41,461 bases of DNA from Trueperaceae bacterium (GTDB lineage Bacteria > Deinococcota > Deinococci > Deinococcales > Trueperaceae), in NCBI GenBank assembly GCA_007695125.1, contig REEJ01000176.1:1-41461 (forward strand). Direction: 5' to 3'. The translations under genes and the position numbers were made by a program. Below the pieces are notes generated by a model, which was given only the letters and a program-made list of their open reading frames with translations, was not told where the DNA came from and did not search any database. Of this stretch, positions 18,680-24,416 are shown one piece after another. Position 1 is the stretch's first letter; every line of letters starts with the position of its first letter.

Positions 18680-19450
18680 TCAGAGCACGAGGGCGAGGAA
18701 CGCGACGAGCGCGATGCCGAAGCCGAGCTCGCGGAAACCGATGACCTTGGCCGGCACGCTGACACGCTGGCGCGACACGCCCAGCGCCGCGCGGCCAGCC
18801 AGCGCCACATACGGGACGAGGACGAGCCAGGCGAGATCGGTGAACGCCACGGCGACCGCCACGAGCGCCAACGCGAGCAGGTGCATGGCCCACACGCACC
18901 TGGGGTCGACGGCGTGGCCGCGCTCGAGGCGCAAGCGTGCCCGCACGTACGCGATGGTAGGGACGCTCCGGGCGGCGAGCAGCGCCCAGAGGCCCAGCGC
19001 GGCGACGATGCCCCACCCGGCGGCGACGGCGATGCAGGCGGCGAGCGACCCGATGGCGAGCGCACCGAGGACCTCGGGGGCGAACTCGCGCGCGCGGCCG
19101 TGCGCGTCGAACCAGAGCTGCCCGAGCGCGAGCGGCGCCGCGATGAGCGCGGGTACCAGGATCGTGGGTGTGCCCGCCAGCGCGATCGCCACCGCCACCG
19201 CGACGACGAGGATGATGCCGTACAGAGCCACGAAGCGCCAGGCGAGGCCGGTCCTCGGGTAGACGCGCCGACGCCGCACGTCGCTGAGCGCCTGGCTGAG
19301 GGGGGTCTGGAGCAAGATCGCGGCCAGCCCCGCGATCACGAGTGCCACGCCCGCGGAACTCCACGCGACCAGGAGCCCGAGGAGCGCGGGCTCGAGGAGG
19401 AAACCCCACGCGCCGTGCTCGACGGGGAGCGCGACCGTGCGAAGGCGCAC
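18680..19450 (-). CDS. YwiC-like integral membrane protein
   Basis: Characteristic LPVEHGAWGFLLEP motif, QALSDVRRRRVYPRTGLAWR, multiple TM helices; GTG start. Confidence 0.82.
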   Translation of the reverse strand: MRLRTVALPVEHGAWGFLLEPALLGLLVAWSSAGVALVIAGLAAILLQTPLSQALSDVRRRRVYPRTGLAWRFVALYGIILVVAVAVAIALAGTPTILVPALIAAPLALGQLWFDAHGRAREFAPEVLGALAIGSLAACIAVAAGWGIVAALGLWALLAARSVPTIAYVRARLRLERGHAVDPRCVWAMHLLALALVAVAVAFTDLAWLVLVPYVALAGRAALGVSRQRVSVPAKVIGFRELGFGIALVAFLALVL

Positions 19451-19464
19451 GCGGCGTGCCGTCG

Positions 19465-19716
19465 TCAGGCGAGCCGCTCCACCCGGACTCGCCAGGTCGT
19501 CGGTCCCGCTTCGAGGTACGTCCACTGTGAGGCGCCCGGACGCGTCGACGCGAAGCGCTGCCGCAGGGGTGCGGGGTCGTGGTCGACGACGATCTCGAGG
19601 GCGGCGCCAGGTGCGAGCGACTCGAAGGTGTTCTCGATGGTCTGGCGGCACGAGCCAGCTGGCAGGCTCGCAACGTCGATGGTGATCGGGTCCACGGCGG
19701 GGACGGTTGGATGCAT
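19465..19716 (-). CDS. DUF2249 (TusA-like fold) protein
   Basis: 83 aa; TIDVASLPAGSCRQTIENTFESLAPGAALEIVVDHDPAPLRQRFAS...YLEAGPTTWRVRVERL. Confidence 0.85.
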   Translation of the reverse strand: MHPTVPAVDPITIDVASLPAGSCRQTIENTFESLAPGAALEIVVDHDPAPLRQRFASTRPGASQWTYLEAGPTTWRVRVERLA

Positions 19717-19874
19717 GACGCTCCTCCTCGACCGGCCTTCATGGCCGGGGGTTCATGGACTCCATTGTCCACATTGGCGTCGCGGTCCGCAGGGACACTC
19801 GTCCATACGATCCGCTCGCCACCGTGTCGCGTGTACGTTGACCGGTCGTCCCACCAGGGCTACGCTCATGCCTG

Positions 19875-20357
19875 ATGGTCGCTTCCGAGCCTCCCCACGA
19901 GCCCGCGCCGGAGCGCTCGCCTCCGCCCGACCGGGTCGTCGCCGTGCCAACCGCAGCAACGGGACCGGCAGCGAACCCGCTCGTACGAGCGGCGTACTTC
20001 ACCTTCGGTTGCCTGACGTTCACACTCGCGATGATCGGGATCGTGGTGCGGGGCATCCCGACCACGCCGTTCCTGCTCCTCACCGCGTTCGCGTTCGCCC
20101 GGAGCAGCCCCCGCCTCCATCGCTGGCTCATGGAACACAAGCGCTTCGGTCCGCTGCTCCACGACCTGCAGAGCGGCCGTGGCCTGACGCTGCGGTTCAA
20201 GGCCGCCACCATCGCGTTCAGCTGGAGCCTCATGCTGGCGACGGCCATCTGGCTGGTCCCGTCGTGGCCGCTCCGCGCGTTCCTGGCCGGCGCGGCGCTG
20301 ATCCAGCTGTACGTGTTCGTCCGCGTGATCCCGACCCGTCCGCACCACGCAGCCTGA
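19875..20357 (+). CDS. DUF454 (YbaN-like) inner membrane protein
   Basis: IGIVVRGIPTTPFLLLTAFAFARSSPRLHRWLMEHKRFGPLLHDLQ. Confidence 0.9.
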   Translation: MVASEPPHEPAPERSPPPDRVVAVPTAATGPAANPLVRAAYFTFGCLTFTLAMIGIVVRGIPTTPFLLLTAFAFARSSPRLHRWLMEHKRFGPLLHDLQSGRGLTLRFKAATIAFSWSLMLATAIWLVPSWPLRAFLAGAALIQLYVFVRVIPTRPHHAA

Positions 20358-20459: not shown

Positions 20460-21023
20460 TCAGAAGATGAAGTCCTCGATGTACCAGGCGCCGCCCTGCG
20501 TGCTGCGGCCGTGCGCACGGCCCGGATCCATGACGTTGGCGTAGGCGCCCATGAAGATCATCGGGGTGCCAGGCGTGATCGCCACGTCGGTGTCTTCACC
20601 GGTGTCGAGCGGGCGGGAGAACTCGACCGTCCAGAGGTCGCCGTCGCGGCTCGCCGCGAAGTCGACGACGGTGTTGCTGCCGCCCTCCTCACTATCGAGC
20701 ACCGGCTCGCCGCGGGCGCTCTCCTGGAACATGTCGAGCAAGACGTACTCGCCGTCCTCTTCGGTCACGATGATGACGTCGAAGCCGGCCTTGCGGTTGG
20801 TCATCTCGTCGGCCCAGCCGACACCGACCCAACCGCGCGCCTCGAGCGTGAAGCCCATGTAGATCATGTCGTCGTCGATGGTCCAGTACACGACCATGCC
20901 GGAGTCGTCGTGCGTGGCGGTGTTGGCGTACTCGCCGTCGGCGATGGCGCCGTCGATGGCGGGCTGCGCCGCGGCGAAGCTGACGAGGAGGGCGAAGGCG
21001 GTGGCGGTGATGAGCTTGATCAT
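20460..21023 (-). CDS. Secreted DOMON / ethylbenzene-dehydrogenase-gamma-like domain protein
   Basis: Signal peptide MIKLITATAFALLVSFAAAQ; IDGAIADGEYANTATHDDSGMVVYWTIDDDMIYMGFTLEARGWVGVGWAD...GFDVIIVTEEDGEYVLLDMF. Confidence 0.82.
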   Translation of the reverse strand: MIKLITATAFALLVSFAAAQPAIDGAIADGEYANTATHDDSGMVVYWTIDDDMIYMGFTLEARGWVGVGWADEMTNRKAGFDVIIVTEEDGEYVLLDMFQESARGEPVLDSEEGGSNTVVDFAASRDGDLWTVEFSRPLDTGEDTDVAITPGTPMIFMGAYANVMDPGRAHGRSTQGGAWYIEDFIF

Positions 21024-21547
21024 GGGACCTTCCTTTCGGTACGAGGTACCGCAGTGTCGCGTGGCGCCGTGTGTGAAGGCGCGGAGGACGATGAAGACTC
21101 CTTGACGACGGCGGTCAACCCGACGACCAAGCCGACGGCGCCGACGTGCGTGTGGGCGAGCCCGGCGAGGACCGGGCGGTACGGGACCTGGAACGACTCC
21201 AGGAGGCCGGAGATGGTGAAGAGGCTGACACCGAGGTCGCCAGCGTTCCAGATCAGGTGCAGCAACGCGCCAGCGAACCCTGTCAGGACCGACACCACCA
21301 TCCAGATGGTGAACGGTAGGCGCACCGCCTTGTGTGTGGTGAAGAACATGGCGATCGCGAGCGGGAACCCGATCATCGACACGTAGAAGGGCCAGCGCGC
21401 CCAGAAGCTCTCCATGTAGTGATCGATCACCCAGTGCTCGACACCATAGAAGAAGAAGCCGAAGGCGGCGATGAGCAAGAAGAAGTTCTGCAGGAAGCCG
21501 AGGACCTTGCCCTCCTCGGTCTTTGCGTTCATCCAACGTTCAAGCAT
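21020..21547 (-). CDS. Integral membrane protein, paralogue of the next CDS
   Basis: About 4 TM; VEHWVIDHYMESFW, TGFAGALLHLIWNAGD, YRPVLAGLAHTHVGAVGL; ATGA overlap with the DOMON gene. Confidence 0.8.
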   Translation of the reverse strand: MLERWMNAKTEEGKVLGFLQNFFLLIAAFGFFFYGVEHWVIDHYMESFWARWPFYVSMIGFPLAIAMFFTTHKAVRLPFTIWMVVSVLTGFAGALLHLIWNAGDLGVSLFTISGLLESFQVPYRPVLAGLAHTHVGAVGLVVGLTAVVKESSSSSAPSHTAPRDTAVPRTERKVP

Positions 21548-21556
21548 CGCGGTCTC

Positions 21557-22000
21557 CTATCGCGCCCGGAAGATGCAAGCGAGGCCGGTCACACCCATGT
21601 TGGTGTAGGCCATCGCTGCCAAGACGGGACGGAAGCCGTGGAATTGATCCATCGCGTACGACCAGTTCCACGCGATGCCCCGGGTGTCCTCCATGTTCCA
21701 GATCCAGTGCCAATAGGCACCGACCAGGCCGGTGACGATGGCCGCCCACATGGTGATGATGAACGCCCAGCGCACCCATGAGGTCTTGCGATCGAAGAAG
21801 ATCCAGACGGTGAAGATCACACCTGGGATGGTGATCCAGAACGGGATCAACGACTCCCACGTGTCGAGCCAGTGGCCGATGATGAAGAGCTCGACCGGGT
21901 ACATGACGAACGCTCCCAAGATCAACAGCAGGAGCACGACCCGGACGATCTCGAGCGTACGTGCAGTCGTGTTCGTTGCGCTTCGAAGCGCGGGTATCAC
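21557..22000 (-). CDS. Integral membrane protein, paralogue of the previous CDS
   Basis: About 4 TM; VELFIIGHWLDTWESLIPFW, TGLVGAYWHWIWNMED, FRPVLAAMAYTNMGVTGL. Confidence 0.8.
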   Translation of the reverse strand: MIPALRSATNTTARTLEIVRVVLLLLILGAFVMYPVELFIIGHWLDTWESLIPFWITIPGVIFTVWIFFDRKTSWVRWAFIITMWAAIVTGLVGAYWHWIWNMEDTRGIAWNWSYAMDQFHGFRPVLAAMAYTNMGVTGLACIFRAR

Positions 22001-22087
22001 GGAGCACCTCCTCGGGTGTAGGAACCATGCCCATCGCGGCAGCGCGTGGATGCACGGTCAGGACCGAAGCTCTGTAGCCTCACCTAC

Positions 22088-22117
22088 GATTCTTCCGACC
22101 CAAGAATCATTTGTCAA
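22088..22117 (-). promoter_or_regulatory. Promoter/operator of the DOMON-membrane protein operon
   Basis: Minus strand TTGACA (22117-22112), 17 bp, AAGAAT (22094-22089); perfect inverted repeat GATTCTT-N7-AAGAATC at 22088-22108. Confidence 0.7.
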
Positions 22118-22635: not shown

Positions 22636-23751
22636 TCAGGCGTCGGGCGCACACGGCAGTTCGACGCGCAACCGGGCCCCACCCTCGGCGCGCTGCAAGA
22701 CGTCCACCGTACCCCCGTGCAGCGCGACGATCGCCGCCACGATCGACAGTCCGAGACCCGAGCCGCCAGTTCCAGGACGACGCGAGGCGTCGACTCGGTA
22801 GAAGCGTCGGAACACGTTCGGCACCTCCTGCGCGGCGATGCCTGGACCGTCATCGAGCACCTCGAGCACGGCTCGCTCACCGTCACGCCGCACCACGACG
22901 TCGACCGTGGTGCTCTGCGCTGCGTGGAGCAGCGCGTTGTCGACGAGCGCGTTGAGCACCTGCCGCAGCCGTTCCGCATCGGCGTCCACCAGCACACGCT
23001 CGGCGTCGATGCGCAGCACGACGCCGGCACTGGCGGCACGGGCCAGGAAGGCAGCGCCCGCCTCACGCGCGAGCGCACCGAGGTCGAGCCGCTGGCGATA
23101 CAGGGTCAGTTCACCGGCTTCGGCCAGGGTGACGAGGCGCAGATCGGCGACCAGGCGACCGAGGAGGTCGACCTGCTGCAGGAGCTGCTGCAGGGTCTCG
23201 TCGTCGGGCTGCATGAGCCCGTCCTGTAGAGCCTCGAGTTCGCTCTTGAGGACGGTGAGCGGGGTGCGCAGCTCGTGCGCCACGTCGGTCGTGAAGCGCT
23301 GCCGCTGGTCCTCTTCGGCCTGCAGGCGATCTGCGGTGTCGTTGAACACACGCGCCAGCGCCACGACTTCCGTCGGACCGCTCGGTTCCGCGCGCACCCA
23401 GCGTTCGCCGGCGCCGTAGCGCCGCGTGACCTCCGCCACACGTGAGATCGGACGGCTCGCTCGCAGCGCGATCCAGCCACCCACCGCCATGGCCACGACG
23501 AGAGCGATCACGGCGGCGCTGAACGTCGCCCCCTGCAGCTCGGCCAGCAGCGCCCGCGATGCGCCCATCGCACCACCGGGCTCTGCGAAAGGCCCGGCAC
23601 CCCCGGGCCCCCCGCCGCGGGGGGCCTGCGCCACGCCGAACGCCCGCGGCACGCGCTCCGACGCCGCGCGATAGCTCAGGTACCCCGTCAGGCTGGCCGA
23701 GAAGAGCGCCGTGAGCGCCACGGTGAGCAACACGCGGACGGCGAGGCTCAC
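22636..23751 (-). CDS. Sensor histidine kinase (HAMP, HisKA, HATPase)
   Basis: TTDVAHELRTPLTVLKSELEAL H-box, DNALLHAA, DDGPGI, GGSGLGLSIV; GTGA overlap with the response regulator. Confidence 0.95.
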   Translation of the reverse strand: MSLAVRVLLTVALTALFSASLTGYLSYRAASERVPRAFGVAQAPRGGGPGGAGPFAEPGGAMGASRALLAELQGATFSAAVIALVVAMAVGGWIALRASRPISRVAEVTRRYGAGERWVRAEPSGPTEVVALARVFNDTADRLQAEEDQRQRFTTDVAHELRTPLTVLKSELEALQDGLMQPDDETLQQLLQQVDLLGRLVADLRLVTLAEAGELTLYRQRLDLGALAREAGAAFLARAASAGVVLRIDAERVLVDADAERLRQVLNALVDNALLHAAQSTTVDVVVRRDGERAVLEVLDDGPGIAAQEVPNVFRRFYRVDASRRPGTGGSGLGLSIVAAIVALHGGTVDVLQRAEGGARLRVELPCAPDA

Positions 23752-24416
23752 GTTCGCAACCGGTAGCCGACGCCGCGGACCGTCTCGAGCTGCTCGGCAC
23801 ACGCACCCAGCCGACGGCGCAGGTTCTTCACGTGCGCGTCGACCGTGCGGACGTCGGTGAAGCCGTCGGTCCGACCCTCGAGCAGTTCCTGGCGCCGCAG
23901 GGCAACGCCGGCTCGGGCCGCGAGTGCGGCGAGCATGCGGAACTGCGTGGGGCTGATGTCCAAGCGCGTCTCGCCGCAGTACGCCGCGAAGGCGTCGAGG
24001 TCGATCCTCAACGCACCGACCGCATGCTGACGGGCGCTTCGAACCTGCCCGGACGCCCGCCGCAGGACCGCGTGGACGCGTGCAACCACCTCACGCGGGC
24101 TGAACGGCTTGGTCACGTAGTCGTCGGCACCGACGCCAAGGCCGGTCAGCCGGTCGTCCTCCTCCACCTTGGCCGTCAGCATGATGATCGGTACGTCCGA
24201 CGTCGCGCGGATGTGCGTCGCCACGGCGACGCCGTCGATCTCGGGCAGCATCAGGTCGAGCAGGATGAGGTCGGGCGACGCCGCCCGCCACAGCTCGAGC
24301 GCACGCTTGCCATCGCCGGCGCGCTCGACCTGGAACCCCTCGGCGCGCAGGTAGCGCTCGAGCACCGCAGCGATCCGAGCCTCGTCCTCGACGATCAGGA
24401 TGCGCTCACCGGGCAT
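23748..24416 (-). CDS. OmpR/PhoB-type response regulator
   Basis: ILIVEDEARIAAVLERYL, PDLILLDLMLPEIDG, TAKVEEDDRLTGLGVGADDYVTKPFSPREVVARV; C-terminal winged helix. Confidence 0.95.
   Translation of the reverse strand: MPGERILIVEDEARIAAVLERYLRAEGFQVERAGDGKRALELWRAASPDLILLDLMLPEIDGVAVATHIRATSDVPIIMLTAKVEEDDRLTGLGVGADDYVTKPFSPREVVARVHAVLRRASGQVRSARQHAVGALRIDLDAFAAYCGETRLDISPTQFRMLAALAARAGVALRRQELLEGRTDGFTDVRTVDAHVKNLRRRLGACAEQLETVRGVGYRLRT

Follow-up and report, generated by a model that had tools for sequence, protein, structure and literature searches.

NrfD-like membrane subunits, such as TtrC and PsrC, consist of two four-helix repeats (PMC8076601). EbdC, which represents the haem-b gamma subunits in type II DMSO reductases, and NxrC are exported proteins of DOMON-like fold found beside a molybdoenzyme, and in ethylbenzene dehydrogenase gamma the haem ligands are Met and Lys (PMC8840923). 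CYBDOM, a fusion of DOMON and cytochrome b561, joins an outer DOMON domain to an inner-membrane partner in a single chain with a two-haem b561 core, and the canonical haem ligands of DOMON domains are Met and His (PMC10784544). These systems and the cytochrome domain of cellobiose dehydrogenase are the described systems closest to the locus analyzed here.

The window, a 41,461-nucleotide stretch of a Trueperaceae genome, encodes two adjacent membrane proteins (A and B) followed by an exported DOMON protein (D). The features of the locus are as follows:

22000-21557, minus strand: A, predicted four-helix membrane protein of 147 aa with a GTG start; E37, H43 and H98 on the predicted outer face
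21547-21020, minus strand: B, paralogue of A, predicted four-helix membrane protein of 175 aa; E37, H38, H43, H97, H132 and H134 all on the predicted outer side
21023-20460, minus strand: D, exported DOMON protein of 187 aa; invariant H171 kept, Lys78 in place of the canonical haem-ligand Met
22584-22114, minus strand: Fur-family regulator of 156 aa (E=3.8e-21), upstream of A
22089-22117, minus strand: promoter-like site for A-B-D, TTGACA, 17 nt, AAGAAT (10/12 matches)
22088-22108, no strand assigned: 21-bp palindrome GATTCTT-N7-AAGAATC over the promoter, a candidate operator

Comparison of the trio with the described systems revealed partial likeness to each of them. A and B together provide 4+4 helices, as do the two repeats of the NrfD-like subunits, and in Thermus, although not in the window's genome, they are encoded with TtrB and TtrA. 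However, A and B are two proteins instead of one, carry a conserved Glu/His/His set and are accompanied by an extra DOMON protein. The idea that A and B are the two halves of a divided NrfD was rejected, since hhalign gave 0.2% for A and for B, that is, no sequence similarity. D resembles EbdC and NxrC: a profile of D retrieved NxrC at E=1.5e-5, and its score against the type II DMSO reductase gamma family EB_dh (PF09459) was 23.7 bits, under the cut-off of 33.3. It differs from EbdC by the Lys at the Met position and the retained His, whereas the trio as a whole differs from both systems by the TtrA type of its enzyme and the addition of two membrane proteins. Unlike CYBDOM, the trio is made of separate proteins, and none of the A and B members matched cytochrome b561 in Pfam. 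The cytochrome domain of cellobiose dehydrogenase shares the fold of D, but has Met/His ligands where D has Lys and His, and D is without a flavin domain.

Products of the trio

The sequence-only reading had placed a secreted DOMON protein in one operon with two paralogous membrane proteins, and the present analysis agrees with it on all these points. The stop codon of B and the start codon of D overlap in ATGA; profile comparison of A with B gave 100% (E=3e-38, 30% identity across their length), and the motifs cited for the pair were found in both proteins; D matched Pfam DOMON (PF03351) with E=3.8e-18 and 66.3 bits against a cut-off of 32.7.

D is predicted to fold into a beta sandwich (pLDDT 82.7). 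This model is structurally closest to the dopamine beta-hydroxylase DOMON domain, which is not known to carry haem. The next matches are haem DOMON domains from the cytochromes of pyranose and cellobiose dehydrogenase (E between about 6e-5 and 4e-4), and ethylbenzene dehydrogenase gamma, NxrC and CBM9 are also among the matches. In the D proteins of the trio, His171 is kept and an invariant Lys78 occupies the Met position; thus, the Met/His pair is incomplete. Because a Lys serves beside Met in ethylbenzene dehydrogenase gamma, this Lys is a possible haem ligand, and from the model a single b-type haem within the DOMON fold is probable for D. Both Met and His are retained in five D-like proteins from other Deinococcota. 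Met/His D-like genes in L059, L060, and L061 (near 5.0-5.9 kb) are located close to genes for copper-type P-type ATPases, and in L060 and L061 a multicopper oxidase is encoded nearby too.

Neither A nor B hit any Pfam or NCBIfam model above cut-off, and a scan of 55 A and B sequences taken singly against Pfam gave no convincing match. The pair, for which no family name had been recognized from the sequence, therefore stays without a confident match to a characterized family. Charge counts under the positive-inside rule, from which we infer the topology, predict that the N and C termini of both proteins are inside. The predicted structure of B has four transmembrane helices (pLDDT 86.7, pTM 0.76) and resembled none of the known membrane folds that hold quinone or haem; the possibility that B has an already solved fold was rejected, as the best E against the PDB was only 0.34. 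A DsbB-like match in one A/B relative (E=0.001) is far below the cut-off, and the conserved core contains no cysteine. The Glu and two His residues noticed earlier in both copies (E37, H43, and H97/98) proved invariant in every aligned A and B sequence, and homologs, distant relatives among them, retain all three.

Distribution in Deinococcota and the Thermus molybdoenzyme loci

B was matched in 31 of the 111 Deinococcota genomes. The co-occurrence expected for the trio was observed: A is adjacent to B in 31/31 genomes, and D was matched in 30 of them, the contig of the 31st (G078) stopping just past B. With this recurrence the trio is a real finding and not a product of chance. It is a conserved gene set in Deinococcota including Thermus, and literature searches found no description of it. 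A scan of the genome contigs with single sequences matched only Trueperaceae and was too insensitive. Searching plasmids for the three proteins gave no matches. Trees of the single proteins and of the three jointly group the same genomes and do not require horizontal transfer. Genus g30 was taken as Thermus, since its RuvC is nearly identical to the RuvC of PDB 4ep4, an entry from T. thermophilus.

Eleven Thermus genomes have the trio together with tetrathionate reductase-like TtrB and TtrA. The genes run TtrB-TtrA-A-B-D, often with YeeE next; A-B-D stands directly after TtrA in the 10 genomes that are contiguous here, whereas the sequence of G065 is too broken up to show the order. Genes for a separate periplasmic-binding protein, a histidine kinase, and a response regulator are divergent from this locus. 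The families nearest to the linked TtrA and TtrB are tetrathionate reductase subunits; TtrA scored 403 bits against the NCBIfam equivalog, under its cut-off of 1750, and this is still the nearest family. The TtrA clade also includes selenate and arsenate reductases (PMC10100899).

All 12 genomes with the trio-type TtrA contain the trio. Thermus and other genera also carry another TtrA type, which is encoded as TtrB-TtrC-TtrA wherever its locus was read. TtrC was searched for in the 111 genomes; of the 27 that have TtrA, 16 also have TtrC. A TtrC homolog was found in none of the 10 genomes that have only the trio-type TtrA, all of which have the trio; the remaining TtrA genome lacking TtrC (G027) contains a TtrA fragment and no trio. 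The hypergeometric chance of this split is ~0.001 with kinship ignored, which makes the figure optimistic. One genome of genus g31 has the same TtrBA type on one contig and the trio on another; thus, linkage alone does not explain their association.

Eleven Trueperaceae genomes with the trio, the window's genome among them, gave no match to TtrA, and in several Thermus trio genomes there was no match either. With so many trio genomes lacking a TtrA match, TtrBA is not a general partner of the trio. At other Thermus loci the trio is present but TtrBA is not, and several of these loci have a similar chromosomal place. One such locus looks as if it had been partly deleted: partial matches to a histidine kinase and a response regulator stand beside the trio (L076:9814-10346), and TtrBA is gone. 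SoxB and YeeE were rejected as general partners, both being absent from the window's genome.

The wider family and the proposed function of the trio

When A, B, and one distant copy were combined into a profile, it retrieved relatives encoded by single genes, both within Deinococcota and in other phyla, and a reverse profile built on these relatives recovered A and B. Family profile comparisons gave 97-98%, against at most 6% for column-shuffled controls. These profiles place A and B as one branch within a larger four-helix family that has no name and extends across several phyla. E37, H43, P53, G94, H98, N102, P125, A128, and G136 do not vary among A, B, and the relatives encoded by single genes; a third branch of the family, in Thermus, retains the E, H, and H.

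Gene neighborhoods outside Deinococcota were read from a mixed sample of relatives. Seven relatives (L133, L136, L138, L140, L141, L172, and L173) adjoin a gene for an exported ComEA-like helix-hairpin-helix protein, and such neighbors occur both in Deinococcota and in other phyla. Relatives of the Thermus branch mostly lie 3-14 bp after a pentahaem cytochrome gene or overlap it, with YceI and DUF5666 genes upstream of the cytochrome. The theme of the family is one exported partner per four-helix protein, and two of the partner kinds are haem-type. The redox context proposed from the sequence is matched by the TtrBA-like molybdoenzyme next to the Thermus trio and by these pentahaem cytochromes. 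Clusters of DUF5666, YceI, pentahaem C7-type cytochrome, and A/B-relative genes were observed at L179:6325-7573, L178:5384-6624, L183:6425-7665, and L061:9292-10547; this unnamed Thermus-type cluster may be a system of its own. In L061, a D-like DOMON gene is about 4 kb from the cytochrome and A/B-relative pair, within one cluster. In G034, an A/B relative is close to CopZ and a CueO-like oxidase.

We give a probability of about 0.5 to the reading that the trio is an envelope electron-transfer module, a DOMON carrier with A/B, able to replace TtrC. Its direct basis is gene linkage, the paralogy of A and B, the conserved residues, the predicted fold of D, and the absence of TtrC. The exported D would carry a b-type haem in its DOMON fold, and A and B would pair, presumably as a heterodimer, in the inner membrane and place their common Glu/His/His site at the outer face. 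Through a supposed quinone contact, and with a presumed direction of flow, this site would pass electrons between D and either the quinone pool or a bound haem. The A/B/D set of Thermus would stand in for the NrfD-type TtrC of the TtrBA-like molybdoenzyme; in lineages lacking TtrBA, including the window's genome, the module would have to serve another partner. Several observations count against this reading: D has the dopamine beta-hydroxylase DOMON as its best match and lacks the Met ligand, TtrBA is missing from many trio genomes, A/B are unlike NrfD, and the exported neighbor in other phyla is a helix-hairpin-helix protein and no cytochrome.

The same data were weighed for other functions. 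Handling of copper or iron, with A/B binding or moving an ion via Glu/His/His, D as an exported metal or haem chaperone or reductase, and control of the Fur type, is unlikely: the Fur-family gene and the promoter-overlapping palindrome in the window's genus speak for it, as do the P-type ATPase and oxidase genes near the D-like genes and the copper genes of G034, but the Fur gene is not adjacent outside one genus, no metal-transport gene was found beside the trio, and the neighbor of the Thermus trios is a molybdoenzyme. Slightly less probable is a role in cytochrome biogenesis or anchoring, where the A/B family would hold, load, or stabilize its exported partner (DOMON, pentahaem cytochrome, or helix-hairpin-helix) without carrying electrons itself. 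The constant presence of one exported protein gene, of whatever type, beside the four-helix gene fits this role; against it, the preservation of Glu/His/His across phyla suggests a site and not a mere anchor, and TtrC is missing in the genomes where the trio accompanies this TtrBA type alone.

The least probable explanation is that D is a haem-free DOMON protein binding a sugar or another ligand, that the trio is a sensor or transport accessory, and that its linkage to TtrBA reflects chance gene order on the Thermus chromosome. The dopamine beta-hydroxylase and CBM9 matches, the missing Met, and the Thermus loci with the trio at a similar place without TtrBA would be expected then, yet ten genomes have TtrBA with TtrC nowhere, g31 has TtrBA and the trio apart, and relatives of A/B have pentahaem neighbors.

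The electron-transfer reading can be extended, tentatively and with more doubt than belief, to the whole family: A/B and their relatives could be widespread four-helix redox subunits whose outer Glu/His/His connects the quinone pool with exported carriers that are interchangeable (DOMON haem proteins, pentahaem cytochromes, and others), replacing the NrfD subunit in Thermus. If so, some molybdoenzymes would run without the NrfD subunit that is thought to join them to quinones, its place being taken by a DOMON carrier together with membrane proteins from an undescribed family. As the unnamed family occurs in several phyla, work in Thermus could assign a function to many hypothetical proteins.

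Control region and flanking genes

The sequence-only reading had also pointed to the neighboring Fur-family gene; it does adjoin the trio in the window's genus, but a general link did not hold, the gene being a neighbor only there. The promoter hexamers are also present in G075 and G079, and the diverged G078 retains TTGACA. The palindrome occurs in a single copy in each of G000, G075, and G079, and its arms GATTC/GAATC are retained in G078. The Fur-family protein is possibly the regulator of the trio, and our guess is that it binds the palindrome. Directly upstream of its gene, a two-component pair is encoded (22636-24416) that is BaeSR-like by NCBIfam, below cut-off. On the other side, genes for DUF2249, YwiC-like, and DUF454 proteins adjoin the trio (18680-20357) and are kept within the genus; DUF2249 and YwiC are often close to genes of nitrogen-oxide respiration.
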